A program made the position numbers and the translations under genes. Of a stretch of DNA of 64,000 nt, positions 39,820-62,046 are shown one piece after another (the first letter of the stretch is position 1; each line of letters starts with the position of its first letter). Below the pieces are notes generated by a model. It saw only the letters and a program-made list of their open reading frames with translations. It ran no database searches and had not been told where the DNA came from. The stretch covers positions 62,001-126,000 of the forward strand of contig JAGTXO010000015.1 of NCBI GenBank assembly GCA_019448385.1. The letters run 5' to 3'. This DNA is from Diacronema lutheri. Its lineage: Eukaryota > Haptophyta > Pavlovophyceae > Pavlovales > Pavlovaceae.

Positions 39820-40232
39820 CGTATAGATGGTCAAGCCAAATCCGATCAGGGGCACGATCGGCGATCGCGCCCCGAGTGCAGCGCGGGCCATTCGGAAGGA
39901 CGTCCTTGTGAGGGAGCTCTTCGCGTTTGGCGAGCGGGGGAGCACGACGCGCAGCGTTGCTGCGGCGGCGTGCGGGCGGCGAGCAGCGGTCGGGCTGCTC
40001 GCGACGAGGCCGGAGCAGACGGCGCCGTGGCCGCCGGCGCAGGTGACGCGCGCCGACGAGCCGTAGCAAGCGTCCGTGATCCGCACGGCGGTTGGAGCGG
40101 GCCGGCTGGTGCGGCGCGCTCGGCCACGGGTGGCGGCGTGCACGGGCGTGCCGAATGCGGTACGCGTCGCCAGCCGCGCGCGACCTGGGCAGAGCCCGCA
40201 AAGCGTCGACCGCTGCGCGGCTCGGCCGTGCG
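39820..40232 (-). other. Region 3' of the Fanzor-ended gene; candidate guide-RNA/3' UTR zone
   Basis: 413 bp between the foldback element and the stop codon of the giant gene. A minus frame is open through it (ITDACYGSSARVTCAGGHGA) but has no recognised domain. In Fanzor and TnpB systems the guide RNA often overlaps the nuclease 3' end, so this stretch deserves RNA folding; I could not identify a scaffold by eye. Confidence 0.3.
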
Positions 40233-40419
40233 TCAACGCCGGCCGCGCTTCGGCCCGCGCGCGATGCCGCCGCCGGCACTGGCGCTGGCAGCTCCGCGGG
40301 CGGGGGTGCGGGCGCGAGAGCCGCCGCCGCCACCGCCGCCGCGCCCGCCGCCGTCGTCGCCACCGCCGTCGCCGCCGCCGCCTCCCCCGCCGTCATCGTC
40401 GTCGTCGCCGCCGCCGCTT

Positions 40420-40452
<33 letters not shown>

Positions 40453-42960
40453 TCGCCGCCGCCGCCGTCGCCGCTGCCGTCGTCGTCGTCGTCGCCCTCG
40501 TCGTCGCCCTCGTCGTCGCCGTCGCACTCGTCGTCGCAGTCGTCGCCCTCGCCGTGCACCATGCGCTCCTCACGCTCCCACACCTCGCCGCGCGCCCACC
40601 AGGCGAGCACGAGGGCAAAGCGCTCAGGCGTCGACGTGGTGTCGCGCCCGGCCGCGTGCGCCGCCATGTCGTGCACGTCGTAGAAGATGTTGCGCGCGGC
40701 GTTGTAGTCGCGGTGCACGGGCTTCTTGCCGCCGTTGCACGCCGGGCAGATGACGAGCGCGTGCACCGTGCGCGTGCCGCCCTTTGCCACGGGCAGGCGC
40801 GGGTTCTGCGCGAGCTCCGCGCCGCAGCGCTGCAGCCTGCCGCCCTTGGCGAGCCGCGGCATCGAGCAGTGCATCGACGTGTACGGCTCGGGCACGAAGA
40901 CGGCCGCGACGCCGCGCCGCCGCAGCTCGCGCAGCAGCCCCACCTGGAAGGCGGGCGGCGCGCCCTTGGGCTGCGCGCCCTTGTGGTCGCGCAGCCACTT
41001 GCCCACGCACACGAGCAGCCGGTCGCGCGTCACGCCGTCGACACAGTGCGCCGCGATGAGCGCCTCGGCGACGCGCGCCGCGTTGGACCGCCCGCCGCTG
41101 TCGCGCCGCCAGCGCTCCTTCCGGCGCGCCGGCGCGTCGTACACGTGCTCGGCGGCGCGCTCGCGCACCCGCGCGCTCTCGCGGTGGAAGGCGTGGAACT
41201 CGCCCTCGCCGAGCACCTTGGCGCTGTGCGCCTCGCCAAGCCGCGCCTCGTCCGCCTCCACGCTGAACTCCTCGCCGCGCCCGTCCTTGCGCACGCGCCG
41301 CCGCGCCGCGTTGGTCTTGGCCGTCTCGCGCGCAAAGCCCGCGGCGCGCGCGCGCGCGCGCTGCGTGAACTGCCGCCAGACGGCCGCCCGCCCGACGTGC
41401 GCAGAGTAGGTGGTGATGTTGCCCATGTTCGGGTCGGCCGCGACGACGACCGCCGCCTCGACGTCGATCGCCCGCCGCAGCTCGGAGCCGAGCGCGACGG
41501 CGATGCGCCCGTCCGGCCGGCGCCAGCGGTGCAGGACGCCCGAGCCGCCGGCCGGCGCCTGCGCCTTCGGCACGAGGACGGTCCCGACGGCGTGCACGGC
41601 GACGCCATCTGTCACCACCGACTTGACGGGCTGCCGGCCCGGGAGCGGCACGCGCGGCAGCGGCGCGAGGCCAACCCACGAGCGCCGCGCGTGCCACGGC
41701 AGATCGGCCGGCGGCCGCTCGCGCCCGGTGTAGTCGAAGACGCGGTTGGAGATGTCGAAGCGCGTCGCAAAGACCGCGTACCTGACACGCACGTCCGGCA
41801 TCGGCGGGGTGTTGCCGTTTGTGCCTGTCCACTTGATCGGCTCGCCATCGTGGTCGCGCAGGTCCAGCGCCTTGAGCCGCGCGCGCAGCTCCTTGCGCTC
41901 GTCATCCGAAAGCGTCACCCAGATGGCGCTCGCGGTGAGGCGCACGTGCACGATGCGCGGCACCTGCGCGCAGCGCGCGGCGCGCGAGCGCGCGGGCGCG
42001 TGACCAACCTGGCCGCGGGGCGGCGCGCACGGCGGCGGCGCGCGCGCGCTTGGGCCCTCGGCGGCGGCAGCGGCAGCCACGCCTCGCGCGCACATTGTGC
42101 GTGCGCAGCGGCGCCACATTGTACCGCGGCGGCCGTCCGGTCAGCTGCGTGTGGATGTGCGCGAGCCGGCAGAGCAGCGCCTGCCCCTCGGCCACGTGCT
42201 GCAGGGTGCGGATCTGCACGAGGAAGTAGCGCGTCGTGTGCCGGTCGTAGTTCCACCTATCCGTGGGCGTGCACTTGTAGTCGATCTTGTGGAGGACCAT
42301 GTCGGGCAGGTGGCGGTCGAGTGCGGCGGGGCAGCCGACGCGCGCGCCCGCCACGTCGCCGCGCAGCAGCCGCTCGCACAGCTCGCGCACGCGCGCGTTT
42401 CGCTGCATCTCGGGCAGCGCGACGAGCGCCTCGTCGCGCTCGACTGCCGCGCGGACGACGTCGCGGAGCAGCCCGTTCACGACGCGCGATGGGTGCATCA
42501 GGCACGCGGTGGACACCTGCGTCGCCTCCTCATTGAGGATCTCCGTGAGGCCCACCGCGCAGACGGGCTGGACGCCCTCGGCCATCTCGCCGACGGCGCG
42601 CGCCGTCGCCGCCTTGGTCTGCGCGGCGGCTTGCTCGGCGGGCTTGCCTCGCGGCGCTGCACCGTACGTGCTCTCGTCCTTGTGCCAGCCGATGGCCGAG
42701 AAGATCGCACGGACGGTTCCCTTGTCCATCGTGGTCGACGTGTGCACGCTGGTCGACGGGCCGCCCGACGCCGCGCCGGCGGCCTGCGCGCTCGCCACCG
42801 CAGCCTCGTCGCGCACCACCTTGTTGATGACGCGGTACGCCTGTGTCGTGAGCCTGTGCACGGCCGCCGCGATGCGCCGCAGCTCCTTCCGCGCACCGGG
42901 CTGCGCCGTCACCGCCTGCGGCCCCGCGTTGAGCGTCGAGCGCTTGACGACGAAGCCCGG
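40233..42960 (-). other. Fanzor (eukaryotic TnpB-like) RNA-guided nuclease module
   Basis: C-terminal part of the giant protein. The N-terminal helical region includes ELRRIAAAVHRLTTQAYRV and DMVLHKIDYKCTPTDRWNYD; a 130-bp intron (42093-41964) precedes VPRIVHVRLTASAIWVTLSD. RuvC-I is EAAVVVAADPNMGNITTYS (Asp codon 41433-41435), RuvC-II VFVPEPYTSMHCSMP (Glu 40887-40889), RuvC-III PVHRDYNAARNIFY (Asp 40707-40709). Zinc-ribbon cysteines are MHC, QRC and CPAC. The family uses a guide RNA to cut DNA. All three acidic residues are present, so catalysis is plausible. A ~120-residue Asp/Glu/Gly tail is unusual. Confidence 0.85.
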
Positions 42961-45900
42961 GAGCACGCTGCCGCGCGTGCGCGCCGTCGCGCCGCCGGCG
43001 GCGCGCGCGCTCGGCGCAGCGGGCTCGTCCACGCGCGCGCGCTCGACGCCGCGCGCGCGTGGAACGCTCGGCGCGCGCGCGCCCGCGGCGTCGCGCGCGC
43101 TCGCGGCGGCACCCGCCGCGGCGCGCTTGCCCGCGGCGCCCGACACGCCGTGCGCGCGAAGCGGCGCCGACGCCAATGCCGACGCCGCGCCCGCGCCGCC
43201 GCTGCCGCTGCCCGATCCGCCCGCGCGCCGCTTCTGCTCGTCGCGCGTCTTGCGGAACTGGGCGACGAGGTCGCTGCTCACGTTGGCCTCAGGCTCCCAC
43301 GTGTCGGCGCTCTCGTCGTAGCCCCGCCACCTGATCCGGAACTCGAACGTCACCTTCTTGCCCGCCTTGCGGCGCTCGTCGACGACCGCCTCGACCTCGT
43401 ACGTGCGCGCCTCCTCGTCGACGCTCGCTCCCGCCGCGCTCGCGCCCGTGTCCGGCCACCCAGCGACCGTGCCGCCCAGCCTCTCGGCGGCCGCGCGCAG
43501 CTGCCGCTCGCGCTGGGCGGCCGCGGCGCCTCGCGCGACCAGCGCGGGCAGCATGCCCGCGCCGCCCGCGAGGCCGTGCGCGCCGACGCTGGCGGTCATC
43601 AGCGCGTCGAGGCACGCGAACGTTGCGAGCGCACGCGCGCCATCGTCGCCGCCGCGCGGCTGCGAGCGCACGACGGGCGATGGCCGCGGCTCCCCCTCGG
43701 CCGCGAGCAGCGGCCAGATCGCATTGGCCAGCGCGACGGCATGCGCGCCGACCGCGACGGCCACGTCCGCGTCGAGCGGCGCAAAGTCGTAGCGCACGAG
43801 CGCGGCCGGGCGCGAGTCGTCCGTCGGCCGGTCGGCGACGAGCAGCCCGACCGGGCGCGGCGGCTCGCCGGACGGCGCGGCGACGGGCACGCAGAGGAGC
43901 ACGACGAGCAGGCGCGGCGTGCCGCCGAGCAGCGCGCGCGCGGCATCCGCCCCGTCGGCTCCGCCGCGCGCGGCCGCGGCGAGCAGCTCGGCCGCGCGCG
44001 TCGGGCCCAGCGCCGTGCGCGCGTCCTTGCGCGCGCGTGCGCGCGCCGTGTACGCGGCGCAGGCGTCGTCGAGCACCGCCGCGCTGGGCGCGGTGCCAGT
44101 CGTCGCCCACGCGCGCAGCGCGTCGCGCACCCGCGCGACGATCGCCTGGTCGACCGCCGCCTCGCCGGCAGCGTGCGCCGGCGCGCACGCCGGCGGTGCG
44201 GCGGCAGGCGCGAGCGCGGGCGCGCCGTCGGCGCCGTCAACGCCGACGGCGCCGTCGGCGCGCCGCCACGCGAGCTTCGCCTCGATCTGCTGCCGGACGG
44301 CGTGGCAGTGATGGTCGATGCCGCGCGCGTCGTCGAGCGCGGCCAGCGCGTCCTCAGCGGCGGGACGGCCGCTCGCGTCCGCGACGGCCTGCAGGCAGAG
44401 CAGCGCGGCCGCACGCGCGTTGCACGCGCTCTGCGGCTCGGGCGCGAGCGCGAGCTCGAGCTCGAGCGGCGACGCGCCTCGCGCCGCGGCGATCGCGTCC
44501 ATCAGCACGTCCAACCGCTGCACCAGCGCCCTGTGCGCGTCGCGCGGCGCGCCCGTCGACGGCGCGCGCGAGCGCGTCGCCACGAGCCCGAGCGCGCGCG
44601 CCGGCGCGCCCGCCGGCGTGTGCAGCACGAGCAGCGCCGCGCCCGCCAAGCTCGCGTTGCGCGTGACGAGCGCGAAGATGCGCGTCGCCTCGTGCGCGCC
44701 CACCGACGCCCAGATCGCAGCGCGATCGGCGTCCGTCTGCGCGTCGCACAGGTCGCGCACGTCGTCCGGCGCGAGCAGCGCGCCGCCGCCGGCGGAGCGC
44801 GCGACGATCGCCCGCGCCTCCGCCACGAAGACGGCCTGCGGCAGGTCGGCGTGGCGCGCGTCGACGATGGCGCGCGTCGCGTGCACGCCGAGCTCCACGC
44901 CGCGGTAGAAGGCGCGCGCGTTGGCCGCGCGCGCGTGCGCCGGCCGTCCGTCCGCGTTGCGCCTCGCGCGCGCCTGCTTGCTCGTGCGCGCGAGGCCGTC
45001 GCGTGGCGGTGGCGGCAGCGTGGCGAGGAAGCGCGCGGCGGGCGGCGGCGCGCGCACGCCGCGCTGCCGCCGTGCGATGGCCGCGAGCCGCCGGCCCGCC
45101 GCGCTGCCGCCCGCGCCGACGTGCTGCCAGCGGTTGAGCGCCGCCGGTGGCGGCGGCGGCGGCGGCGCGGCGGCGGGCGGCGGCGCGACGGCGGGCGGCG
45201 GCGCGGCGGCGGGCGGCGGCGCGGCGGTGGGCGGCGGCGCGGCGGCGGGCGGCAGCGGCGGCGGCGCGGCGGCGACGGCAGCACCAGTCGGCTTGTCCGC
45301 CCACGCACCCGAGACGCTGTCCCAGGCCTTGCCCGGTGGCGCGCGCCCACGCGGCCGCGGGTGGCGGGCTCGAGCGGCGGGGGGCGGGCGGCCGGCGCGC
45401 CAGTCGAAGACAGGTGCAACCGTGGCGGCAGGCGCCGAGTGCCGCGCGTCGGTCACAGAGCGCGTGGTGCGCGCGGCGACCGTGGCGCGCATGGCGGGCG
45501 GGCGGTGAGCAGCGCCCGCCGGCGCGCCGGCGGGCGCGGCAGCCGGCGCGCCGGCGGGCGCGGCCGCCTCGAGCCCGGCGGAGGCGCCGCGCTTGCGCTT
45601 GCGCGTGCCGCCGCGCGTGCGCCTGCGCGCGCGCCCGCCGCGCGCCCGCTCGGCCTGCGCGTCGCCAGCCGCGTCGCCGGCCGCGTCGCCGCGCCGCACG
45701 TAGACGACCGCGAACGCCTCCTCGCCGGTCCCGTCGACGCCGCCGCGCGCGCGACGCAGGACCGACCGCCACTGCAGCCGCCGCGCGCGGCCGGGCTCGC
45801 ACGCAAACCAGCGCCCACCGCGCCTGACGACGGCCACAAAGTCGTCGTCGCGCCGCCCGCGCCGGCGCGTGCGCAGCAGCACGCACTGCACGTCGAGCCA

Positions 45901-48900
45901 GCCCTCGTGCCAGTCGGCCGTGCTGGGGGCGACGCGAATCGACTGCGGGAGCTCGACGCCAAAGCCGGCGAGCCGCACGATGTGCGCGACGATGACGCTC
46001 GAAATGGCGGGGGCGCTCGACGGGTCGCCCGCTGCAGCGAGCACCGCCCCGCCCCAGTGCTCACGCGTGACGCAATCCGCGTCCTCGACGTGCACGTGCG
46101 CCACGCTCGCGCCGAGCTGGTGCAGCAACGCGCAGATGTCGGCGTCGACCGTCCTCTCCTCCTCGGCCGCCTCGGCCGTGCCGCGGGCGGCGGCGTCGCC
46201 CGCCGGCTGCCCGAGGTACGCGATCGCCCGCTTGACGGCCGCGCCCTCCGCACGCGCTGCGCTGTCGATCGCCGCATTGCCGACGGGCGCGCGCAGCGCC
46301 GCGATCGCGTCTTGCAACGCCGTCGCGTCGCCCGTCGCCGCCGCCGCCGTCACCGCCGCCGCGCTCGCGGTGCCGTGCGCGACGGCGTGCAGCGCGGCGG
46401 CGCGCGCGGCGGGGATGCGCCCGTCCAGCGCGAGCACGAGCGGCGGCCCGGCCGGCGTCTGCTGCCGCCGGTGCCGCCGGCTCGCAGCCGGGTGGTCGGC
46501 GCGCGCGCGCTCGAGCCGCGCGCGCCGCTCGACGACGCGCGCCCAGAAGGCCTGCACCCTCGGCTGCGCGAATGCAAGCCAGCCGGCGCCGCGCGTCACG
46601 ACGTGCACGACGATCCGGTCCTCGTGCCTGAGGTACTGCACGTAGAGCGCTTTGCTCACGCCGAGGACGTGCATGCCGAGCTGCAGCTGATCGCGGTGCG
46701 GCTGCGGCGGCCCGTCCTCGTGCGCCGTGGCGCCCGCCTTGGTGAGCGTCTTCACCTCGACGAGGACCTGCTCGTTGTTTTCGGGGAGGATGGCGAGCCC
46801 GTCCGGCGAGAAGGCGAACGGCGCGCTCTTGTCGTGCGGGTCCGCACGCACCATCGGCAGGTTGCACACGACGGTGATGCCGTACGCGGCCGCCAGCTTG
46901 CGCAGCGCGACGGCCTCGCCGAGGATGCCCGCGGTCGTCGCCTTGGTCCGCACCTCGCGCCGCCGCCGGTGCACGTACTCGTCGGTGAGCGTCTCGTGCG
47001 CGACGCCGGCGTTGTCGTTCACGACGTCGCCAACCTTGCTGCCCGTGACCTCCTCCCATCGCTCGTCGTGCCAGCGCGGGCTGCGCTGCGCGGGCGCGCC
47101 CGCGCCGACGGCGTCGAGCACGCGGCGCAGCGCTGTGCCGTCGGGCGCAGCAGGCACGCGCGCGCGGTCCTGGGCCTCGCGAGCGTCGAGGACGCGGCCC
47201 GTAGTGGAATCTTGGGGTAGGTCGAGCTTGCTCGCCTCGCCGTAGCGGCTCTCCAGCTGGCGCGGTGCGTCGGCAGGGCCGCCGTCCGTGCGCGCACCCG
47301 ACGCGCCCGCCAGTGCACGGGGCGCAGCGTCCGAGGCGCCCGCCGCGCCCGCGCCGCCGCCAATCGCGCCGGCGCACGCGCGCGCCGCGACCTGCGGACG
47401 GCCAGCCGCAGGGGCCTCGTCCGCTCGGCCGGCCGCTGCGTCGGCCGTCCGCTTGGCCACCTCGCGCACGTCTCCGAGCGCGAGCGTGGCTGGCGCCGTC
47501 CAGCTCCCGTTGCGTTTGTCCCAAAATTTGAGCAGCCCGCCAAGGAAGGGCGTGCCCGTCGGGCGGTCCTCGGGCACCTCCGCCAGGATCGCGTCGACGC
47601 GCAGCGCGGCCGCCACATCGCAGAACGCGCGCGCGGCGCGCGCCATCCGCTCGGCGCGCGCGCCGCCGTCGTCCGCTGCGCGGCGGATGGCGTGGCTCAC
47701 GTGCGCGACGCGGAGCGAGACGACGGCGTGCGCCGGCGCGTCGGCGCCCGTGCCGAGCGTGTGCCGCCGGATGGCCAGCTGCCCATCGCCCATGCGCGGC
47801 GGCAGCGACGCGCACGCCGCGACGGTCGTCGTGCCGGCCGCGCTGTCGCACAGCCAGCTCGCCTCGCCGCCGCCCGCAAACTCAAAGGTCGCGAAGCCCT
47901 CGCGGCCGAAAAGCGCGACGAAGTGGTCGAGCACCGCCTTGTTGATCGCGCGCGCCGCCGGCCGCGTCGATGCGCCGCGGGCAGCGCCACCCGCCGCGCC
48001 GCGCGCATCGCTGCACGTCGCTGGGCAGGTGCAGCCGGACGCGCGCACGCCGTCCGACCGCGTCCGCGGCAGCTCGAGCTCGCGCACCTTGGGGCAGAAC
48101 CAGAGCGGGTTGGACGCCTCGAGGCACAGCACGACGAGCCGCCCGTCCGTGCCGGCCAGCGCGCGCGCGTCGCGCAGCAGCTCGACGGCGAGCTCGGACG
48201 TCGCCGCGTGCACCGCCGGCTCGCCCGTCGCGCGGTCGGGCGGGAAGAGGCCGCCGCCGACGAGCGGGCTGGGGCAGCGGCCGAGCATCACGAGAAGCGG
48301 CGGCGGCGGCGTCTGCGGCGCCTGCTGCCCGACCGCAGCCGCCGTCAGCCCGGCCAGGTCGGAGCTCGTGCGGAGGGCCTTGAGCGCGACGCGCGAGCCG
48401 GTGCCCGCCTGCTCGGAAAACGTGGCGAGCATGGCGCACGTGCTCGCCCTCGCGCCGCACTGCCAGCTGACGCGCGCGAGGAGGCCTTCCAGCGTGTCGT
48501 TTTCGCGCGGCCGCGTGACCGCGTCGAGCGCCGCCGGGCCGAGCTGGAGGCTGCCGGGCGTGACGCACAGCACCGCCTCGTGGTAGGCGCGCAGCAGCTC
48601 CCTCGGCAGCTGCTCGGCGGGCGTCGCCGCCTGCCCGCCCACCCACCGTGCACCGTGGCCGCCGTCGCCCGCGCCCGCGAGCCGGACCGCCGGCCCGCCC
48701 GTGATCGCCGAGGTCGGTGGCGTGCCGAGCGCGTCGACGAGCGCGCGCACGGGCGCGACACGCCTGCGCGCAGCGTCCGCGCCGACGGCGAGCGCGGCGA
48801 TCTGAGCGCCCTCCCATGCGCGCTCCCTCGCGTCGTCCCGCGCGGCCGCCGGCGCGGCGCCCGGCCGCGCGCCGGGCGGCACCGCGCACGCCGCCGCGAC

Positions 48901-50787
48901 GACCTCCGCGCGCGCGCCGGCGGCGTCGGGCGCGTGCAGCTGCGCGAGCGCGCCAAAGAGCGCGGCGGCCGAGCGGTAGCGGCCGTGCGCCGCGACGAGC
49001 GCGTAGAGCACGCGCAGCGCGGCCACGCCCGCCTGGTCGGGCGCGTCGCCAGCGATTTGCTCGACCTCCCACGTGCGCGTGGGCGGCGGGCTGCCGTCGG
49101 CCGGGTCCGGACGCAGCGCCCACGCGCGCTCGACGATCGCGTTGAACACGCCGCGCGCGGCGCCCTCGTCAAACTCGGCGGCGCCCGCCGCGTGCGCGCA
49201 CCACCCGTGCACGCGCGACGTGGGCGCGTCCACGGCGCGCTGCACGACGAGCACCGCCGGCCGGTCGACGCAGCCGAGGCTCACCGCCGCGTGCTTGCCC
49301 TCGAGCAGCGCCGCCGCCGCAGCCTCGACCAAGGCGTCATCAGGCGCGTCGCCGACGACGACGGCACAGCCGTCGCCGTACTCGGCCTGCATCGCGGCGA
49401 CGCACGACGCGACAAAGTCGCCGCCCGCGGCCGCCGCGTGTCGCGCCGCCAGCATCCGGCGCGCGATGGCAAGCCAGACGTACTCGGCCGGCGCGCGCGC
49501 GGCGCGCGCGCGAGGCGCGCCGGCCGCGCCGCGTGCGCCCGCGCGTGCGCCTCCAGCGGCCGCAACGGCCGAGGCGGCTGGAGCGGCGGTGAGCGTGCGC
49601 CGCGCGCGCTTCGCCGGCCGCGTGATGGGCGATGCACCCGCCATCGCACCGCCCGCAGCAGCCGGTGCGGCCGCCACAGCGCCCGCCGCAACGCCACTCG
49701 TCACGACGCCCGTGGCGGGCGGCGCGGCGGCGGACGCGGCCGCCTCGACGGGCGTCGCGCAACTACCGCCAGCGGTCGCGGACGCGCCCGGCGACGCGTC
49801 GGCGAGGAGGTGGCGCAGCACGCCGCGCGCGAGCGCGACTGGCACGGCGAGCGTCAGCGCGCGCAGGCGGTCGGAAGGCGAGGCGTCGCGCTCGGCGTCG
49901 GCGGACGTGGCGGCAGCAGGCGGGGCGGCGGGCGGCACGGCGGCGGGCTGGGCGGCCGCCGGCGCAACCTCGTCGGCCTTGGCCAGCCAGACGAGCCCGG
50001 CGACTGCGAGCACGACGCTGTACGCGCCGACATCGTCACCCGCAACGCGCGCCAGCCGGGCGTGGGCGTCGGCCTCGGACACGGCGACGTGGAAGAGCAC
50101 GTCGTCGCGGGCAGCTTGCTCGGCAAACTGACGCAGCTGCTTGGCCATCGTCACGCCGGCGACGCACGCCTCGCCCGCCTCTGCCTCGACCTGCTCGTCC
50201 TGGCCGATGGCGGACGCGCCGGCCTCGGCGCCAGCGTCGAGTGTCCGGCGGCGCTCGAGGGCGAAGCCACGCACACAGACGCGCCGGAGGCCGCCGAGCG
50301 CGCCCGCCTTCTCGTGCAGCGCGCACGACAGCTCGACCACCGAGTCCACGCGCCTCGCGGCGGCGCCCCCCCGCTCGCCGCGCGTGGCCGCGCGCACGAC
50401 GAACACCGTGAATTGCGCGCGCTTCGCCGCGCGCGCCGACGCGCACGCGTGCTTCAGGAGCCGGCAAAGCGCGGGCCTTTGCGCCGCTGCGCCCCGCGTG
50501 CACAGCAGCAGTTGGCCGCGCTCGTCGCCCAGCTCCTGCTCGACGGCGGCCTCGAGCGCGTCGTCCGTCAAATCGCCGTGCTCCGTCGAGGCGAGCGCGC
50601 GCGCAGCCGCGAGCGCCAGCTCGCCTGCGCCCGCGCGCCGCCGGCGGCGCGCACCGGCGGGCGCGTGCGGCGCCGACGCGTGTGACGACGCCGCCGCGTC
50701 CGCGCGCGCACACGCGGCGCGCAACGCCTCACGCGCCGAGGCGGCCGCGCGCGCCCTGGGCGCGAGCTTCAAGAACGTGCGCGCGGC

Positions 50788-50863
<76 letters not shown>

Positions 50864-53800
50864 TCGCCCGCGTCGCCGGCCGGCGGCGGCGGTGGCGGCG
50901 GTGGCGGCGCGGCCACGGCGGCGGCAGCAGCGGCGGCGGCGGCGGTGGCGGCGGCGGCGGCGCCCAGCGCGGGCGGCGGCGGCGTGGCGGCGGCGGTGGC
51001 GGCGGCGGTGACGCCAGCGGCGGCCTTGGCGCCGCGCGTCTGCGGCGGCGTTTCGGCGCGATCGGGGCTGCCCCCGCCACGCACCGCGCTCGTGACCGCG
51101 CAGACGCCGCCCGGCGCACGATCGCTGGCCGCGCCGGTCAGCGCGACGCGGAGGCGCTCGCCGACAGCGTACATGTCCGCCACGCTGAACGTGCGCGGCG
51201 CGGACGAGCAGCCCGCCGCGGCGAGCGCGTCGTTGAGCGCGCCCACTATCGCGAGGCCGCACGTCGCGCCACGCTGCGCCGCCTCGTTGAGCAGCAGCGC
51301 GCGGCGCACGCGCGAAATGTCGAGACCCGCCGCGTGCAGCGTGGCAGTTATCGCCTTGGCGAGCATGAGCGCCTGCCTGCAGGGCGACGCGAGCGTGTCG
51401 ACGAGCACCGCGTCGTAGCGATGCTCGCCCGCGCGCGCGACGCGCACAAGGCGCAACGCGGTGAAATGGCCGGAGGCGAGCTGCGCGCCGTCGTCACCGC
51501 CCGCGCCGCCGCGCTCGTCCGACGGGCTCCACACGCCGATGACAGCCTGCGTTGTCGCCTCGCTGCGCAGGCGGTGCAGCAGCGCGGCGCGCTCGGCGTC
51601 GTCCTGAAACACCGCGGGTTGCGCGGCGAGCGGCACGTGGCAGACATGCCCGCCGCCGGCCTGCCCGTGCACGCGCAGCACGACCTCGCAGCACGCGTCG
51701 ACGGTTGAGGCGAGCATGTCGCCGCTGGCGATGCGCTCCACCTCTGCCTGCGGGAGGCCGGCGCTCGCGGCGGCGGCGGCCAGCCGGCGCGCAGCCGCGT
51801 CGCCCGCCCACGCAAGCAGCGCCGAGTTGGCGGGTTGGAGGGGAAGCTCAAGGGCGGCTGGTTCGGTGGCGGTAGCCTCGTTGGCAACGGGCACGTTGGC
51901 GGTGCGCGCGTTGGCGGCGGGCGCGGCGGCGATGGCTGGTGGGGCGGAAGACGCGCCCGCGGCGGCGGGCGCGGACGCGGCAGCGGCAGCGGCTAGTGGG
52001 GCGGGGAAAACGCCGTCGGTGGCAGGCGCGGAGGCGAATGCAGGAGCAACTAGTGGGGCGGGAAAATCGGCGGCAGGCGCGAAGGCGGATGCAGCAGCGG
52101 CTAGTGCGGCGGGGAAAACACCGTCGGCGGCAGGCGCGAAGGCGGATGCAGGAGCGCCCAGCGGGGCGCAGAAAACACCGTCGGCGGCAGGCGCGAAGGC
52201 GACAGCAGCAGCGGCCAGTGGAGCGGAGGCGCAGGGCCACGCGCGCGCCAGCCGTGCAAGCCCAAGCCGCGCGCGAGCGACGCACGCGCCGATGGCCGAG
52301 GCGGCGGCGCAGGCCACGACGTGGCCTGGCACCGGTGTGGCCAGCCGCTCGCGGGTGTGCACGTCGAGCCGCGCCCCACGCCAAGAGCGGCGGCGCGCTG
52401 AACGGAGGCGCGCGACCCCGATCGATCCGCCCGCGCACGCGCGCGCCGGCTCAGTGTGGCCAACGCGCGCCGCTATGCAAGGCGCGCGCGCGATAACGGC
52501 GGCTGTCGGCCGTGGCGTGCGCGTGGCGGCGCCGCGGCGACGGGCGCGGCACACGAGCCGCTCGGGCGCGCCGCCGCCGCGCGGCACGATGTCGAGCAGC
52601 ACGGTCACGCCGCGCGCGCGCGCGACCGCCGTGCACGCGAGCCGCACGGGCAGCGGCGGCCCGTCCGGGCGCGCGAGCGCCGCCACCTCGGCGTCGGTGA
52701 GGCTGTGCAGCTCGCGGCGCGCGCGCGCGAACGCGGCGATGTCCGCGCGCAGCTCCGCGTCCGTGCCGAGCGCGGCACGCGCGTGCACGGGGAGCGACGC
52801 GCGCAGCGCGTGGAGCACGCCGCCGCGCGCGCCGCGCGGCGCCGGCGCGCGCTCGCGCTCAGCGCGCGCGGCGCGCGTGAGCTCGCGCACCGCGCGCGCG
52901 AGATTGCGCCGCGCGGCCGCGACGGGAGGGCTAGGTGCGCGCGCGCGCCGGTTGTAGCGCGGCCGCGCCGAGTCGAGGGGCGGCGGACGCGGTGCGTACG
53001 CCGCGGCGCGGCCCGCGCGCCAAAAGGCCGGCGGCGGGCGCAGCTCCGTCGCGTCGACCGCGGCCGCGAGCGCGCCGAGCGCGGCGTCGCTGTCGCCCGC
53101 CGCGTCGGCCGCGTCGACGAGCACGAAGAGCGCGCCGAGCGCGCGCGACGCGGCCGCCTGCGCGGCGGTGGGGCGGGCGCAGGCAGCGACGCATGCGGCC
53201 GCCATGCCGCGCGCCGCGGCGAACGCCGGTGACGTGACGGCCGCGCCGATGGCAACGGCGGCGGCGGCGACGGTGGAGGCGGCAGCGCCGGCGATGGAGG
53301 TGGCAGCGGCGGCGGCGCTTGCCATCGCGCGGCGCGCGAGACGCGAGGCGCCACCGACCGCCGCCGCCGCAGCGCGCGCTGCGCGCGCGCCGGTGGCGCG
53401 CATCGTCGCCGCGCCAGGCGCCGCCGCGCCGACGCCGCCGGCGCCCGCGCCGTCGCCGCTCTCGGCCGTGCAGGGCTCCGATGGCGAACCCGGCGTGCGC
53501 TGGCGCGTGATGCGCGCGCCGAGGCGCGCGCTCCGCGCCGCGCGGCCGGCGACGTCGAGGAAGCGCCGTGCGCGCGCCGCGCGCAGGCCACGCGCGCGCG
53601 GCGGCGCACCGACAGGCGCCGAGCGCCGCGGCGCGCACGCCGGCGCGTCGCTGTCGGGTTGCGCAGCGCGCGCGCGGGAACTCGGCGCGGCGTGTGCGGG
53701 CGGCGGGCGCGCGCCCGCGCGGCGCAGAGGCGCGAGGCGCCGGCCGCAGACGAGGCGTGTGCGCAACCAGGACGGCGAGGGCCGCAGGGCGCCGTCGACG

Positions 53801-56800
53801 TCGCGCATCGGCGGGCCGCGAGCCCGCCGCGCAGCCGTGCGGCGCGCGCGAGGCGCTCGGCGGCGCGCGCGCCGCACGGCGCGCGCGGCGGCGCGCACGC
53901 CAGCGACGGCTGCGGCCACGCCGCGCGCCAACACGGCCGCGGCGTGCGCCATCGCACCGAGCACGGCGCGTGGCGCGCCGAGCAAGCGCAGCAAGCGCGA
54001 CGCCGTCGCGCGCGCCGGCGCACCGTGTGCAGGGGCCTCGCCAGCGCCAGCACCGACGCCGCCATCGCCGCAGCCGCAGGTGGCGTCGCCGCCGCCGCAG
54101 GCGTCGCGACGGACGCCGCCGCCGCCGAAACAACCGCCGCACACGTCGCCGCCGACGTTGCCACCCCAGCCGCCGTTGCGTGCGCAGGTGGCTGCGGCGC
54201 GTGCGTGCGGGAGGCGTGCCGTGCGGCGCGCATCACACGGGCTGCGCGACGCGAGCGACGCCGCCGGGGTCCCCGCTGCGCCAGGCGCGCCGTGCGCGCC
54301 AGCCTCGCCGGCCTCGCCGGCGCGCGGTCGCGCGCTCGCCTCGACGTGGCCGCCTCCGCCGCCATCGCCGCCGTCGAACCGGGCGGCGGAGGGCTGCCGC
54401 TCGAACCGCTCGTCGGCGTCGGCCGCCACCGCCGCCTCGCGCTCCGCCGCCGCGGCGGCCGCACGGCGCGCGTGGCGGAGCGCGCGGCCGCCGTCCGCTG
54501 CGCGGCGTGGCGGCGCGGGCGCGGGCTTCGGCGCGCGCGGCCCCTCGGCGCGCTCGCGGAGCACGGCGAGCGGCGTGCCCGTGGCGACGCTCGTGCAGAC
54601 GCGCCGCAAGGCGGCGCTTACGCACGCGTGGACGACGCGCGCCGTCCGCTTGTCGGCGGCGCGCGCGGCGCGGCGCGCGGCCTTGGCGGCGGCCTTTTTG
54701 GCGCGCCTCTGCTCCGCCTGCTCCGACAGCGCGCGCGCCTGGCGCTCGGCTGCGAGCGCGTCCTCGGGCGAAACGGTCGGCCTCGGCGGCCGCGCGCGCG
54801 CGCTGCGACGCTGCGCGCTGCGGCGGTCGGACGGCGGCTGCCGCGGCGGCGAGGACGGCGAGCGCGAGCTCGGCGTGGGCGACCAATCGCCGCTGACGGT
54901 TGCGAGCGGCGCAAACGGGTTGTCGTCCCCGCGACCCGCGGCGTGCGACAGTGCACGCGGCGTCGGGCGCCGGCCGACCGCTGGCGGGCCCCACTCGGAC
55001 GGCGGCTCCGAGGGCGAGCGCGCCGTCGGCGCCGCGCGTTGCGCGGCCGGCGGCGCCTCCCGGTCCAGCGCCGCCTGCTCTCTCGCCGCGGCCTGCTCGT
55101 CACCCTCCGGCACGCCACGCGGCGCGAGCACCGCGGTGGCGCAGCGCGTCGCGTTGAGCAACGCCGCCTCCATCTGCCGCACGCTGGCCTTGGCGCACGC
55201 CACACCCTCTCTCGCCCGGCGCAGCACCTCGTGCGCGCGGCGCACATCCGCGTCGGCATCTTCGCGCATGCCAAAGTGCGCCTGTTGCAGCCGCAGGTCC
55301 GCAGGGCGCCCCTGCGCGCGAGGGGCACGGGCGCGGCGGCGCGCAGGTGACGGAGCTGGCGCGCCGTTCTGCGCTGCGCGCACGCCAATCGACGGGCGCG
55401 CGCGCGGCGGGGCGCGCGCGCGCGCGCGCGCGCGCGCTGCCTACCCAGCCGCCGGCCGGCTCGCGCGAGCGCGCCAGCTGCTCCGCCGCCTCGGCGTCGA
55501 GCACGCGCTGCTGCGCCTCCTCCTCGCCCAGTGCAGCGAGGTGCAGCCGGCGGGCTGCCTTGCGGCAGTTGCCCTCCGCCTTGCCCACGGCCTTGCGCGC
55601 CGCGTCGACGGGGTCGTCGTTGGCTCTGGCGCGCCTGCGCTTGCCCTTGTCGGCGGGCGGCGGCTTGGCGCGCTGCAGCGTGCCGAGCGCGTCGTCGGCT
55701 CCGCGCGCGGCCGCCCGCGGGCGGCGGGCCCCAAAAAGCGCACCGGTCGCCGTGCGCGCCGCGCAAGCAACGACCAGCGCTGACATGCCGGCGAAGACCG
55801 CACCGCCCAGCGCCACGGTTGCCACGATGCGCAGCGTCCCGTGCGCAAGCTGCGCTGCCTCCGCCGCTTTGGCGGCCTCGCGCGCGCGCGCATCGGCGGC
55901 TCTCATCTCGTGCAGCAGCCCGGCCGCGCCGCTCGCGCCGTCGCGGCCGCGCGCGAGCTCGCACAGCACCGCCGCCGCGCGCCGCGTGGGCTCGCGCGCG
56001 AGCAGCTGCGCGCCGCCGTCGGGGCGCAGCTTCTCAACGAACTCGACAAACGTCGCGTCGCGCCAGAGGGACATGCGGAAGGCCCTGTGCACCGCCCCCT
56101 CCTGCTCGCGCATCCGCCGTGCCGCCCGCCTGCCGTCGCGCGCGTGCGCGTGCGCGGCCGCGTCGAATCCCGCGACGCCGCGCTGCGCGTCGCGCGCGGC
56201 CGACGACGGCGCCGCCGCGCTGCCCGCCAAGGGCGCCGCAGCGGCGACGCGCGCGTGCGGAGCGACGGGATCGCCGGCGGCCGGCGGCTCGGCGCGCTGC
56301 GGCGTGCCGTTTGCTCCGCGCGCGGCCGTCCCGGGGGAGATGGCCGCGATGGCGCCGCCAGCCGCGCCGCGCGCCAGCCACGCGCATAGGCTGCCGACGA
56401 GCTCGCCGAGACCCCCGACGGTCGCCGCGGCGGCGAGTGCGCCGGGCTTGCCGGCCGACAGCGGCTCGCGAGCGTCGTCGTCGCAGCCGCCGGCACCCGT
56501 CTTGGCGAGTGCGTCGCGCTCGCCCTCGACGCCCGCCACGACCGCCGCCCCTCCGTCGTCCGCCGCGCCGGCCGCGCGCGCGGCCGGGCGCAGAGGAGGC
56601 GTGCCGGTGCAGCCGTCGCCGCTCGTCTTCGCCGTTTCCTCCACTTTGGTCACTTCGTCGCCACCTGCGCCATCTCCGACGCCGGGGCCCTTGGTCACGC
56701 TTGCCGCCATGCGCGCCGTGCCCGCCGGCCAGCCCGCCGACTGCTCGAGCGCGGCGGCGAGCGGCGCGACGCGCGTCGACTCGGGCGCGCTCTCGTCATC

Positions 56801-59119
56801 GGGCTCGAGCGCGTTGTGCAGGCGCGCGAGCGCGCGCTCGACGGCCGCGGCGCCACTGCCGGGGGCGCGGCTCGCCGCGCGCACCGCGCGCCGCCAGGCC
56901 GGCGCGAACATGAGCGCCGGCTCGAGCGCCGCGAGCGCGCGCGCCTCGCGCGCGTCGCTCGCGCCGAGGCGCGGCGGCACGCGCGCGGCTCCGCGCGGCG
57001 CGGTGCCTCGGAAGCGTGGGCTCAGCGTGTAGGCGAGGTGCTGCGGCACGCCGCGCGCCTCCGCGCGCGCGCGTCCGTCCTCGACCTCGCGCCGCGCCTT
57101 CGCGATCGCCGGCGTGGCGCGCGCGAGCCAGTCGGGGTCGGCGGGCAGGTGGATCACGACGAGAATCGGCGCCCAGTCCAGCCGCGGGTTCTTGTGACGG
57201 TCGGGCACGACCCACACGAGCAGCACCGTGCCCTCCGCGCCGCACGCCGCCTCGTAGATCCTGGGCTGCGAGCGCCAATCGGGCCTGACGCGCAGCGCCC
57301 GCGCGTGGTCGATGGCGGCGGCGCGGTCGCCATTGAAGTGAACCGTCGTCACCTCGCCGATGACGGACCGGCCGGACCGCCAGCAGAACACCGCGTCCGC
57401 CGACCCGCCGGCGATGGCCGCGAGCGATTCGGGCGCGGCGAGCCGCGGCAAGCCCTCGAAGGCGGCAAAGTCCTCGTGCGCATTGTACACGCCGCCCCAG
57501 CCGTCGTGCGCGTACGCGCGCGCGGCCGCTCGTACCGCGCGCGGCTGGTTCTCCACGCCCGACGTCATGTGCCATGTCGTCCCCGCGAAGCCGGGCTCGC
57601 CCAGCTCGGCCCGCACGACGGTACCGTACCCCGCGCCCTGCGTCGGGGCGGCGAGGTGGTGCATGCCCGCGCCGGTCACGCCCTCCGTGCGCTGCCGCGT
57701 GACGATCGTGCCCGTCGCGTGCGCGAAAAGCGTGTCGACCACGGCGGGCGCGCGCCCGCTGTTCGCCCGTAGCCGCGCCCTGCCCGCTTTTAGCTGCTCG
57801 GGGTCCTTGGCGTCGTACACGCGCGCGTCCGCGTCGCCCTCATCAGGCGCAGTGTAGACGCAGCGGCGTTCGAGCGGCGCCGAGCCACCGCCGTCCGCCG
57901 CCGCCGGCGAGGTTGGCGCCGCGCCCGCCGCCACCGCGCTCGTCGCCGCCGTGCCCGTCGCCACCGCCGCAGCCGCCGCGCCCGCGGGGTCGTCGTCCCC
58001 GTCCTCCGCGCCCTCCCCGTCGTCAGCGGTGGTGGCGTCGCCATCGTCCCCGTCGCCCTCGCCCCCGCCGAGGCTGCTGAATGGTCGGGGCCCCCACGCC
58101 GAGGCGGCGCGCCGCTGCGGCGCACGCGGCGGTGGCGCTCGCGACGGCGGCCTTGGCGCCGCCGCGCCGCGCGGCCTGGCCGCCGTCGACAGCGCGCGGC
58201 CTGCAGCGCCCGTGAGCGCGTCGAGCGCGGCCGTGCGTGCGATGCGGTCGTCGGGCGCGCGCAGCGCCGCCTCGACGGCCTGCAGCAGCCCGTCGGGCGC
58301 GGATCCGCCGACACTGGCATCGCACGCCTCGGCGAGCCGCGCGGCCTCGGCGAGCCGCGCGGCCTCGCGGGTGAACGGGCCGAAGCGCCTGGCGCGGTCG
58401 CCGAGCAGAGCGCCGATGGCGGCGCGGAGCGTGCGCGCGCGGGTCTCCTCGTACGCGGCCGTCGTGAGGCGCGCGAGGCGCGCGTCCAAAGCCTTCTTGA
58501 TGTCGACAAGGACACTCGCGCGGCGGCCGTAGAGCGTCGATGCGCTCGCCACGACCTCGGCCGCGACTGTTGCCGCGGCGAAGCAACACGCGGCCCCACT
58601 CTGCGGGGGCGCCTTGAAGGCATCGATGGGCGGCGCTGTTCTGCCGATGCGCTGCGCAAGCTTCTTGATGAGCACGCCGGCCGCCGTGGCGTACGCCGAT
58701 TCGCCGTTGCCCAAGGTGCGCGAATCGGCGAGCAGGGCGAGCGCGGCGCCGGGCGGCGCGCCGCGCTGCGCGGGCGGCGCGAGGAGCAGGTACGCCGCCG
58801 TCCAGTGCACGAGGCCGCTGGACGCGCGGAGGCAGAGCGGTAGCACGACCACGAGCACCTGCCCAAACCGGTCCGCATCCGCGCATGCTTTGCGCAGGTT
58901 GCGCAGCGCCACCTTGAGCGCATGCTGCGAGCACCCCGTGTCGCCCACCCTAACCCTGCTCGTGCCGAAATCCGCGTAACGCAGCAGGGCGATGAGGCAA
59001 GTGGATGGGACCACGTGGGGGTGGGTATCTCCCGGCGACAGAATGGTGCTGAGGGCCAGCGAGAAACTGTCCGAGCCGCCCCGCCCGCCGGGCAAAGCGT
59101 CCTTCACGGAGTCCTCCAT
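40233..59119 (-). CDS. Giant ~6,207-aa polydomain protein: C48 proteases, YqaJ nuclease, chromodomain, Fanzor
   Basis: Exons 59119-55445, 55311-42094 and 41963-40233 join in phase 0 (donors GTAGGC, GTGCGC; acceptors GCGCAG). Exon 2 alone is an open frame of 13.2 kb. N to C: a C48/Ulp1-like protease (H105, D132, Q173, C178/179); a PD-(D/E)XK-like segment with SADAVFCWRSGRSVIGEVTT (~575-595); a membrane-type helix (~1096-1122) and coiled coil across intron 1; a second C48 domain (H2507, D2530, Q2571, C2576); a poly-Ala run; degenerate C48-like modules at ~3320, ~4850 and ~5120; a YqaJ nuclease (E4024, D4062, E4077, K4079); a chromodomain (~5195-5250); Fanzor RuvC nuclease (~5340-6060) with D5808, E5990, D6050; an Asp/Gly tail. 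Whether it is cleaved, and whether it is host or mobile, is unknown. It looks whole. Confidence 0.7.
43225..43404 (-). other. Chromodomain within the giant protein
   Basis: TYEVEAVVDERRKAGKKV, then FEFRIRWRGYDESADTWEPE and ANVSSDLVAQFRK show the aromatic-cage Tyr/Trp positions and the WRGY..S..TWEP core of chromodomains. In transposons such domains steer integration to methylated histones. It lies just before the Fanzor part. Confidence 0.88.
46560..47130 (-). other. YqaJ-type exonuclease/recombinase domain within the giant protein
   Basis: SPRWHDERWEEVTGSKVGDV opens the domain; GILGEAVALRKLAAAYG, AFSPDGLAILPENNEQVL, VEVKT and RDQLQLGMHVLGVSKALYV supply the E, D, ExK and Q motifs of YqaJ/lambda-exonuclease PD-(D/E)XK nucleases. 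Found widely in phages, large DNA viruses and eukaryotic transposons. Confidence 0.85.
50789..50862 (+). repeat. GGC array encoding poly-Ala in the giant gene
   Basis: About 24 uninterrupted GGC units; on the coding strand they read GCC, a 24-Ala run. Shorter GGC-rich blocks continue to about 51010. Confidence 0.95.
51244..51720 (-). other. C48/Ulp1-like cysteine protease module in exon 2
   Basis: SGHFTALRLVRVARAGEHRY provides the His, YDAVLVDTLAS the Asp, and NEAAQRGATCGLAIVG the oxyanion Gln and nucleophile Cys, in the order and spacing of SUMO-protease-type C48 peptidases. No substrate can be told from sequence. Confidence 0.65.
51960..52225 (-). repeat. Degenerate protein-level tandem repeat in the giant gene
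   Basis: Five to six imperfect copies of a unit like ASAFAPAADGVFPAPLAA, about 20 residues each, precede the second C48 module. It probably forms a flexible linker. Confidence 0.75.
58580..58830 (-). other. C48/Ulp1-like cysteine protease module at the N terminus
   Basis: GLVHWTAAYLLL carries the His-Trp pair, LALLADSRTLG the Asp, and APPQSGAACCFAAATVAAE the Gln and Cys. The preceding residues (SFSLALSTILSPGDTHPHV) fit the substrate-side helix region. Two adjacent Cys make the nucleophile ambiguous. Confidence 0.6.
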
Positions 59120-61829
59120 CTGCAGACTGTGGGCACGTCAGTGTCCGGATGGCGGCCCGGATGATACTTGGGAGAATTTACATGATGCCCTGGAGAATGC
59201 CCCGCTCTCCCACAACCAGGACCCGCCAGCGCGCCGAGCCTACTCGTTTGCCCGCGCCGCCTCTCTTTGCGCGCCCGAGCGCGGCCTCCGAGCGCGGCCA
59301 ACGTCCTCCGGGGGCGTGCATCGTGGCTGCTCGGAGGGGCTGCGACGCGGCGAAAGCTCGCTGCGCGGCCGCAACGTGAGCGCGCGCGCGCGGCCGCGCG
59401 CCGGCCTGCGCTGCTCTGCACGGCCGCGCGCCGGCCTGCGCAGCCTCGTCGCGCAGCGTGAGCGCGAGCGCGCGCGAGGTGAGCTCGGCGGATGGGTGCG
59501 CGGCGGCGTTGGCGGCGGGTGCGGCGGCAGGCTGGGCGGCGGGTTTGGACGGAGAGTGTCGGGGAAGAACGGGGCGCATCCTGGCTGGGAGTTGGACGGC
59601 GCCCACCACGCGCTGGCGGATCCTGGTTGCCACCACCACCCCCCCCCCCCCCCGGAGACGAGGACCAGGGGCATGGCCGACTCGCTGCGCCGCACAGCGC
59701 GCGGCGCGCGGCATGCTGCGCGACCTCAAGCACATCCAGCCGCGCTCCGCTCACGCAACGCGCGCAATGCCGCGTTGCACTGCAGGTGTGCACGTGCGGC
59801 TCTCACGCGCACTGTGTTGCACGAACGGCATCACGCCACCGAGCTGCGTCCGGACCACGCGCCGCGCGCAGGCGACCACACAGGGGCGCGCCGCGCCGCG
59901 CGTGCGCGCCCTCGCAACCGTTGCAGCACGCTCTGCCTTGCACTGCGCCGAGCCGCCGCGCGCTGTGCGCGTGCATGCAGGGCGCACGCGTGCGACGAAG
60001 CGCGCGCGCGGCGAGGCGCGCGGGCGGCTCGCTGCGCGGGCGGCAACGCGCCCAGCTGCGCCCAGGCCAGGCGCGCGCCCGCGAGTGCCACCGGGACGCA
60101 CTGCCCCCGCCGGGGTCGCCGCGCGCTCTGTGTGTGCGCTCGCGCGCTGCGAGCGCGGCGGAACGTTCGTGCATGGCGCGAAGAGCGCGGCACCCGAAGA
60201 CGGCTGCCCCGAGCCCGCGCCGGGTGGCAGCGAGCGGCGGCACCTCCTCGGCGAGCCCGCCCCGCGCCTTCCCCTCCACGTGGCGTTTTGAGGCAGACGG
60301 ACACGCGCCCACACTGCGACTGGGCACGCTGCTCGAGGCAGACACGCACCCAACGCGCGCGCACCACGCGCCCGCGTCGGCGGGCCGGTGTGAACGAGCG
60401 AGAGCTCGGTGTCGCCAACGAGGGCACGGGCGCGACTTCGGTCCGCCTCTCGACGGACGCAAGCGACGCTGCCGGGAACTTCCCCGACGCCTGCACATCC
60501 AGGGCTTCGAGGTACAGAGCTGGGCAACAGTGCCGCTCGTCACCGATGAGGCGGCCAAGCTCGCTATCCTTGCTGCCCTCGGCTCCACCAAACAGCCGGG
60601 CGACCCAACGGTTCGTGATCGCCTGGCCGCCAGGTGCGAACCGCGCCCGTGCAAGCGCTTCACCCGCATTCTCCGCCCCGCTGCGGACGTCCGCCTGCCG
60701 GCCGCGAACACGGCCGGTGCGCGTTGCCGCCTGGCCCAACACGAAAACCCGCCCGCCCCCGAGGCCGCAGGTCCTACCTGCCCAAGCGCAGCCCAACGGC
60801 ACGCAGACAGCCCGCCTTGGCAACCGACTCGTGCGCGAGCGCTCCGCCCTCCACAAGAGCCTGCCCCACGCCACCGCCGACGCGGAGCCAGCGCAGCCGA
60901 CGCCCCTCCGCGACGCTCGCGCCGCAAGGCGCAAGGGCCCCGGCGAGACGGCGTCAACCAAGCCCGCCGCTGGCACAGCGCCGGCACCCGGAGCCCACCC
61001 CAAGCCCCCGCGCACGCCTCGCCCCCCCCCCCCCCCCCCCCCCCCCCGATCGGCGGACCGATTGCGTTTTGGTGCGCCAGGCTCAATGCGCCATCGCAGT
61101 GGCGGGCCCGCAGACGCAGACGCTGACATGCCCAACGCTGGGCACTGAGGCCGCAGGCCGGCCCTCCTGGACCTGGCGGGCGAGCTGCCCGCGCAGCGGC
61201 CACGCGAGCCTCGCACTGACCGTGGCGGTCGCTGCCACCGTGATAGCTGCGGGTGCGGCGGCCTTGGCCCCAACCCCATCATCCGTCTTCATCCCCGCCC
61301 TGCTCGCGCTCGCGGCCTACGTCGGCAATCCCTGCACCGGGATCCGCCCCGCGAAGTCCACACAAGACTTATCCGTGCTGCACGCCAGCCGCGCGCGCCG
61401 ACGCGCGCCGCTCCCACACGCTCACCTCCGTTTCCGCGGGCGGCCCAACGCCCCCCCCCCCCCCCCCCTCCCCCCCCCCCCCCCCCCCCCCGGCAGGCGG
61501 CCATCGAGCCGCATTAGCACACCCGCCCGGGGCCTCCCGCCGCACCCGCAGCGGCTCGGCGCCTTGAATCCTCCCGTCCCCCGGGGTGAGGCCTTCAACC
61601 CGGGCCCAGCGCGCTCCGACTGCCTCACGCGCGCCAGCGCCAACCTCGGCGGCATGGTAGACCCCGAGCGAAAAGCCGCACTTCTCGCCGTCCTCGTCAG
61701 GCGCAAGTACGTTATCCTGCTCCTACTGCCGACGCGGCTCCCGCGCGCGCGGACTACTACGCCGGGCAGATCGCCGCAGACGCACGTGAGTGCACACGTG
61801 CGGACAAGGCGCACACGCTCGACGTCCAG
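59120..61829. other. 2.7-kb stretch with poly-C tracts, no confident gene
   Basis: This lies between the giant gene's start and the USP gene's end. Homopolymer C runs occur at about 59638-59657, 61022-61047 and 61452-61493 (with a T). Frames on both strands are open but compositionally driven. A plus frame near 61650-61740 (LGGMVDPERKAALLAVLVRR) faintly recalls the start of an APE-type endonuclease of LINEs, too weak to call. A plus frame at ~60490-60640 (GFEVQSWATVPLVTDEAAKL) is also protein-like without a match. Confidence 0.4.
59214..59629. repeat. 21-bp inverted repeat pair upstream of the giant gene
   Basis: Arms 59214-59234 and 59609-59629 (CAACCAGGAYCCGCCAGCGCG in consensus, 20/21 matching) are inverted and about 375 bp apart, with the inner arm edges GC-rich. 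They may bound a small element or pair in RNA. No target duplication is apparent. Confidence 0.7.
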
Positions 61830-62046
61830 TTAGCGCACGTGCACGTGCGCGCCACTGGTCACATTTGAGCGTCCGTGCTCGCCCACAGCGTCGCCATCCA
61901 CAAGATGCGCGCTGGAGCCATCCAAGCAGGGCTCTGCCTGCTCGGCTTCCGCAAGGCAATTTGGGCCGCGGACAGCGGACAGCGGACGGCGTGCGCGTGC
62001 GAGGTGCGAAAGGAGGAAGAAGGTAGGGAGAGTTGTGTGTGTGTGT

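Follow-up and report, generated by a model that had tools for sequence, protein, structure and literature searches.

Transposons that carry a Fanzor nuclease are already known: the Fanzor1 transposons described by Bao and Jurka (2013, PMC3627910) are multicopy mobile carriers of a protein with a C4 zinc finger and an RD motif, and RNA-guided cutting has been described as promoting spread in the case of TnpB, with a like role suggested for Fanzor (PMC10432273). Replitrons measure 0.9 to 4 kb (PMC10741241). Here we analyze a 64-kb stretch of DNA from the pavlovophyte haptophyte Diacronema lutheri (the window, on whose scale all coordinates are given), in which a first-pass annotation had read one lone giant gene ending in a Fanzor. 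We find that the frame stands, but that the gene makes up about 60% of a larger mobile element (~31.05 kb) with about 220 end pairs in the genome, and that the combination of domains, the size, and the genome share of this element are unusual. Its architecture was unreported in the open-licence literature searched, in line with the earlier statement that no described protein was known to have such an arrangement.

Like the Fanzor1 transposons, the Diacronema element is a multicopy carrier of a Fanzor with a C4 finger and an RD motif; unlike them, it is 31 kb long, has its Fanzor as the C terminus of a protein of 6,207 residues, adds YqaJ, chromodomain, USP, and PIF1 domains, and has no recognized transposase. 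The TnpB of IS200/IS605 and IS607 elements would be expected to play the same role, namely, cleaving empty sites and thereby letting recombination restore or copy the element, but the Diacronema element is eukaryotic, has a large cargo, and yielded no TnpA-type transposase. It resembles Helitron and Helitron2 in its PIF1 helicase, its lack of long terminal inverted repeats, and possible Fanzor carriage, and differs from them in having no Rep domain, other ends, and near-equal end counts. Short direct end repeats are shared with Starships and Cryptons, and giant cargo also with Starships, whereas the Diacronema element is not fungal and a tyrosine recombinase was undetected. Finally, its exonuclease domain matches phage RecE/YqaJ recombination exonucleases (phrog_434 and, weakly, TIGR03033), in contrast to which it is embedded in a giant fusion with the Fanzor.

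Results

On the minus strand, the right end of the element, on the 3' side of the giant gene (39821-39842), reads ...GATTTGGCTTGACCATCTATAC. Homology among copies breaks sharply at position 39821, where the sequence is ...GACCATCTATAC (...CTATAC), and past the letters ...CCATCTATAC begins the flank, which differs in all 11 other copies with sequence beyond this end. The left end, TATATA[G/C]GGCGCGG..., in which the adjacent base varies between G and C, lies outside the window, the element running on from 63982-64000 to about 70850 when a retrotransposon insert is omitted. A left-end query gave 40 scored matches, 22 of which end at positions 448 to 450 (16 exactly at 448), and the next 4.5 kb upstream of the window are covered by 33 of 33 scored matches. 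Both ends bear TATA(C), and the three copies with both flanks (C4, C30, and C34) differ outside it, with the exception of a short shared ending, GCGTCGTTA, in the left flanks of C4 and C34. Long inverted repeats were not seen at the two termini of the element, and comparison of the window's flanks, the true left end lying beyond them, gave only low-complexity inverted matches.

We searched the genome to which the window belongs (43.49 Mb, 103 contigs) with end patterns allowing up to 2 mismatches and observed 221 right ends and 225 left ends, with 0 matches for the reversed patterns used as control. The copies are near-identical: with the window's own copy included, at least 150 copies of the YqaJ part (150 of 150 scored matches among 237 candidates) are 98 to 100% identical and at least 148 of them stop-free, and the same identity holds for at least 93 copies of the Fanzor exon (93 of 93 scored, 417 candidates), at least 92 of them stop-free. 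Mobility of the element is shown by its copies, which are dispersed and have common ends but differing flanks.

Pairing was sampled with 100 listed right ends (to C50) and 68 of 100 listed left ends (C1 to C48), and 43 of these 68 left ends have a right-end partner of matching contig and strand. The two ends are 30,993 to 31,083 bp apart in 17 of the 43 pairs, and other spacings cluster near 29.2, 26.3, and 21.5 kb; one right end was used twice, and a 37.8-kb pair is therefore doubtful. Without that pair the mean spacing is about 28.0 kb, which, multiplied by 221, gives about 6.2 Mb or ~14% of the genome, if the remaining ends are taken to come from similar copies. On C82, two left ends lie just 53 bp apart, which indicates that not every end marks a copy. 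The 26-kb class copies on C34 and C46 lack window positions 56711-64440 and thereby both the USP frame and the N-terminal ~800 residues encoded by the giant gene; in their place stand ~2 kb of other sequence. Since this size recurs, such shortened copies appear to be spreading, possibly aided in trans.

More distant relatives are also present. A relative of the PIF1 region (L034; C27:144500-151800) is 91 to 96% identical, and a relative of the region that we call module B below (L025:5224-6212) is 88% identical and interrupted by stops further along; both appear to be older lineages of the Fanzor element. With respect to the TNB domain, 31 of 150 scored matches (306 candidates) exceed the 31.3 bits usual for the element family, with scores of 31.8 to 44.5 bits; 14 of the 31 reach 43.9 to 44.5 bits, and several lie in open frames of 1,500 to 1,800 amino acids. 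These stronger matches (e.g., C1:154701, C9:378667, and C85:60775) are other Fanzor families, perhaps also fusions. Seven contigs (C1, C8, C12, C13, C26, C29, and C32) begin or end within a few to some ten bases of element ends, and the element thus also limits genome assembly at such places. A telomere-associated element was considered and set aside, as contig ends at the element fit assembly breaks and many copies are internal.

The giant gene comprises three minus-strand exons, 59119-55445 (1,225 codons), 55311-42094 (4,406 codons), and 41963-40233 (the RuvC half of the Fanzor, followed by an acidic Gly/Asp-rich tail), which together encode 6,207 residues (6,208 codons including the stop). 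Intron 1 (55444-55312, 133 nt, GTAGGC...GCGCAG) is predicted from the exon join, and intron 2 (42093-41964, 130 nt in the window copy and 2 nt shorter elsewhere, GTGCGC...GCGCAG), which interrupts the Fanzor, from the exon join and the comparison of copies. Both are GT-AG and phase 0, and the three frames and two introns of ~130 bp have exactly the coordinates that the first-pass annotation had given them. Not one of the 4,406 codons of exon 2 is a stop, whereas the remaining five frames of the same DNA have 8, 20, 48, 34, and 20, from which ~26 would be expected; the longest frame in 100 second-order Markov simulations has 2,366 codons. The frames of the giant gene thus exceed chance, which excludes the earlier proviso that they might be chance frames. 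Codon-position guanine-plus-cytosine (GC) content agrees, with third-position values of 0.90, 0.91, and 0.95 in exons 1, 2, and 3 versus 0.56 to 0.66 at position 2, the signal being weaker in only a few windows, e.g., 51601-52200. The first exon is supported by its open frame, this GC signal, and the exon join, and the third by its frame, profile match, and motifs.

Comparison of copies adds to this picture. Exon indels found in more than one locus are all multiples of three (6 nt in 20 loci and 18 nt in 6 loci), versus a 2-nt difference between copies in the length of intron 2 (13 and 6 loci), a pattern that would be compatible with splicing; the 20 loci represent 17 distinct copies (three pairs overlap) and each difference may be one event, so that this is moderate evidence. 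Against the 88%-identical relative, the ratio of replacement to silent changes per site (pN/pS) is 0.49 for 142 codons of the module B region (overlapping stretch 51397-51823, minus strand), without gaps or stops; by this ratio, the stretch, diverged by 12%, has probably been under selection, whatever its fold. Ratios of 1.4 to 1.8 in other pieces (exons 2 and 3 in L025, PIF1 in L034) and of 0.78 in a USP piece of 54 codons are as expected for decaying copies without the constraint of module B. The window holds a further giant exon (445-14667, plus strand), which has 4,740 codons from stop to stop, reads by eye as a HECT-type ubiquitin ligase, and carries on in frame 13274-15709; giant exons in this genome are not peculiar to the mobile element.

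Within this spliced frame, profile searches bear out most of the domains that the first-pass annotation had named. The C terminus carries a Cas12f1-like TNB domain (zinc finger plus RuvC-III; 40686-40925, minus strand) with a PF07282 match of 2e-6 (28.3 bits against a cut-off of 26.3) that includes E5990, the C4 finger, and D6050. Fanzors are defined by the pattern D-X(125,275)-[TS][TS]-X-X-C4 zinc finger-X(5,50)-RD (PMC3627910), which here corresponds to D5808, TS 185 residues later, Cys 5997, 6011, 6037, and 6040, and RD at 6049-6050. A further trait of Fanzors is a rearranged catalytic glutamate located six residues ahead of the zinc finger (PMC10711439), as is E5990 here (with C5997 as the first finger Cys). 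These motifs support the prediction that the Fanzor is catalytic. Its N-terminal half (42094-42957, minus strand, about residues 5344-5631) is assigned from its position and a reading of its sequence and has no profile match of its own.

The chromodomain (43249-43401, minus strand) matches PF00385 at 6e-12 (45.7 bits, cut-off 25.1). The YqaJ/RecE-like exonuclease domain (46522-47097, minus strand) is likewise supported by phrog_434 at 6.2e-15, while TIGR03033 (3.2e-5, 24.1 bits) stays under its curated cut-off of 68.05 bits and PF09588 (0.00037, 21.2 bits) slightly under its cut-off of 22. A tblastn search of this domain against phage genes reached 1e-5 and hit 57 records, with identity of at most 28% among the 20 matches listed; apart from this domain, the phage search gave one weak zinc-finger match for the Fanzor. 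The active-site motif by which YqaJ/RecE domains are assessed is PD-(D/E)xK, which the residues SPDG...VEVK resemble by eye.

By contrast with these domains, the multiple Ulp1-like protease modules proposed earlier found no support. An H...D...Q...C pattern is visible by eye in two segments only, module A (58520-59119, minus strand; HW...DS...PQS..CC) and module B (51187-51669, minus strand; GHF...VDT...QRGATCG). Pfam gave no C48 match at E values up to 10 on modules A, B, G, and H and the other pieces submitted, and phmmer against PDB gave no match of any kind for module A and one weak unrelated match for module B. When the AlphaFold model of module A (predicted local distance difference test score, pLDDT, 64.5) was compared by Foldseek, no named C48 protein was among the 50 listed of 621 PDB matches, nor did one occur in the list of 50 from 937 viral matches, a list that includes nameless entries; the model of module B was unusable (pLDDT 43.2). 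Pairwise comparison of ten chosen segments with shuffles gave no convincing kinship, the top score (segment C to D, z 3.7) falling in alanine-rich sequence, and an alignment of the modules that left the motifs unaligned was not used. We therefore do not retain the Ulp1/C48 identity, and the first-pass reading as a whole is partly supported.

Upstream of the giant gene, an apparently mostly noncoding stretch with a weak codon-position signal (59120-62487) recurs in other copies at 97.6 to 99.9% identity. It is followed by a USP/UCH-type deubiquitinase-like frame (62488-63981, minus strand; PF00443, 4.3e-8, 33.5 bits, cut-off 23.9) and, past the window at about 64800-67400, by a PIF1 helicase on the minus strand in more than one frame (PF05970, 1.8e-24; Pif1_2B, 6e-13). 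Toward the left end lies a ~0.85-kb palindrome, and nine frames around it match no family above chance. About 0.4 kb inside the left end, the window copy also holds a long terminal repeat (LTR) retrotransposon, copia-type by eye (L048:2423 to C29:137251), of which five other genome places share 3.3 to 4.5 kb at 97 to 100%. A search of the giant protein, of the frames for USP and PIF1, and of the nine frames near the left end yielded no known transposase. Four scans of viral contigs gave no relatives of the element. The 3' untranslated stretch (39821-40232, minus strand) is, by its position, a candidate scaffold for a Fanzor guide RNA; Rfam gave 0 matches in the window.

Several smaller repeats adjoin the element. 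The repeat at 39036-39819, next to the right end, was considered as the element's own terminus and rejected, since the 11 other copies lack it; it is a composite of small repeats with 15-nt ends (TGTTGGGATAAAGTA) and has 4 matches in the window and 98 mostly partial matches in the genome, itself included. A short repeat ending in GCGTCGTTAG or GCGTCGTTAC flanks element ends in several copies (L049:446-590, window 39697-39806, and L051) and may be a favored target or belong to a small element that is related. Further away, 34566-37199 is a ~2.6-kb element with 384-nt terminal inverted repeats that are 99% complementary.

Discussion

These observations are probably best explained by a recently amplified giant transposon of ~31.05 kb, in which cleavage of empty sites by the Fanzor leads recombination to retain or duplicate the element. 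Its mobility is demonstrated, whereas the steps beyond the ends and domains are ones that we infer. The element would insert at TATA(C), and the Fanzor transcript would read through the right end, the flank supplying the guide. TnpB and Fanzor guides extend from the right end of the element into the flank, and with guides of this reach the joined site that excision leaves, TATA(C) followed by the right flank, would become a cut target. The nuclease would thus recognize and cut the empty site, with TATA(C) as target-adjacent motif next to the right flank, and resection by YqaJ together with PIF1 would aid recombination with an occupied copy, through which the element is kept or copied. The chromodomain may anchor the giant protein to chromatin and give access to it, and the proteases may cleave the polyprotein or strip ubiquitin-type marks. 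For the first insertion, a tyrosine recombinase of diverged sequence may have served, or else a transposase concealed in the unassigned parts of the giant protein.

Several observations weigh against this interpretation. With respect to the coding capacity of the gene, 15 single-locus exon indels disrupt the frame (decay or sequencing error), and the 224 changes between near-identical copies comprise 58 silent, 165 replacement, and 1 nonsense change, with 28 to 34% silent changes expected; changes in 5 or more loci look equally neutral (18 silent, 40 replacement). The single nonsense change of 224, against about 1.5 to 1.8% expected, decides neither way. The link between exons 1 and 2 consists of a predicted intron in a low-complexity region, and a Met 15 codons into exon 2 is a possible start of a separate gene; at intron 1, the reading as one gene rather than two is putative. 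Exon 2 alone, however, carries YqaJ, the chromodomain, and the N-terminal half of the Fanzor, which share a single open frame regardless of intron 1. RuvC-I reads DPN, whereas that of Fanzors is near exclusively DPG (PMC10711439); as the rule is "near exclusively," this weakens the assignment but leaves Fanzor identity possible.

The ends and the machinery raise points of the same kind. At the left, 17 of 39 other scored matches overrun the end by 6 to 142 nt (five of them by about 100 to 142 nt), because some left flanks share a repeat. The TATA(C) target is based on three copies with both flanks plus right flanks, and no empty site was seen among the flanks read. The candidate guide scaffold at 39821-40232 folds weakly better than shuffles (z -1.5; in a second copy, z -2.0 over the final 175 nt). 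Profile searches of the frames tested found neither an HUH nor a tyrosine recombinase family and, together with the lack of a transposase match, make the autonomy of the element putative. The lack of a recognized transposase is its strangest feature, and also the least secure. Since our preferred explanation leaves the insertion enzyme open, the alternatives below overlap with it.

A less likely possibility is a giant element like a Crypton or fungal Starship, with TATAC direct repeats and a tyrosine recombinase that went undetected. The short TATA(C) common to both ends (with G or C as the adjoining left-end base), the lack of long inverted repeats, and the large cargo would fit such an element, and one Fanzor family bears part of a Crypton transposase (PMC3627910). 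Among the giant protein, the nine frames at the left end, and those for USP and PIF1, however, none matches a tyrosine recombinase profile, a result to be read with the proviso that profile searches may miss diverged members.

It is unlikely that the element has no transposase at all and that the RNA-guided nuclease, the YqaJ exonuclease, and the PIF1 helicase are themselves the spreading machine, opening TATA(C) sites and driving copying by host recombination in a homing-like manner. No DNA enzymes other than the cutter, exonuclease, and helicase were recognized in the element, and the copies are numerous and near-identical; most flanks read differ, whereas RNA-guided homing alone requires a matching target, and the large parts of the giant protein without domain assignment could conceal a transposase.

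A Helitron or Helitron2 that captured a Fanzor, in which a rolling-circle Rep-helicase would move the element with the Fanzor as an accessory, is quite improbable. The PIF1 helicase and the absence of visible long terminal inverted repeats would suit it, and Fanzor1 is known in Helitrons, the ends of Helitron2 starting with T and bearing hairpins (PMC3627910). Helitron_like_N (PF14214), however, occurs once in the genome, on contig C63, and in no element copy, and this one Rep indicates that the test could have worked; the first ~330 residues of the 462-amino-acid frame with the PIF1 Walker motif match no Rep family either. The ends (TATATA... and ...CTATAC) are not the 5'-TC and CTRR-3' of Helitron1, and left and right ends are near equal (225 and 221), in contrast to the 3' excess in the Fanzor elements CRe-1, 2, and 3 (both PMC3627910). 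The absence of a Rep thus mostly refutes this explanation.

Far less probable is the remnant of a large DNA virus that became endogenous. Giant algal viruses carry YqaJ, PIF1, Fanzor, and proteases, an overlap in gene content with the element, and Fanzors in particular have been found in algal viruses (PMC3627910), but the profile matches include no virion or polymerase gene, the viral-contig scans gave no relative, and the integrations are many, with precise ends. A family of ordinary host genes, or frames open by chance in GC-rich sequence, for which the other giant exon of the window would speak, has a negligible probability and is already refuted by the precise ends repeated at about 220 dispersed places and by the frame statistics.

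The natural role of Fanzors is an open question, and an abundant, recent family with known ends and a long frame that is open in many copies makes their role, target-adjacent motif, and guide source testable in a small aquaculture alga that was sequenced with PacBio. With an RNA-guided nuclease fused to a RecE-type exonuclease, a single protein would bring cutting and recombination together, a combination that engineers now try to achieve by hand. The published Diacronema lutheri genome has a GC content of 73.25% and 22.9% repeats, with LTR elements and long interspersed nuclear elements (LINE) making up 36.5% of masked bases, and the string "transpos" is absent from the main text of that paper (PMC8379373); at ~14% of the genome by our estimate, the element could explain much of the repeat DNA not named LTR or LINE. 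If the transposase-free explanation were true, the element would be an example from nature of RNA-guided self-copying, occupying about a seventh of the genome.

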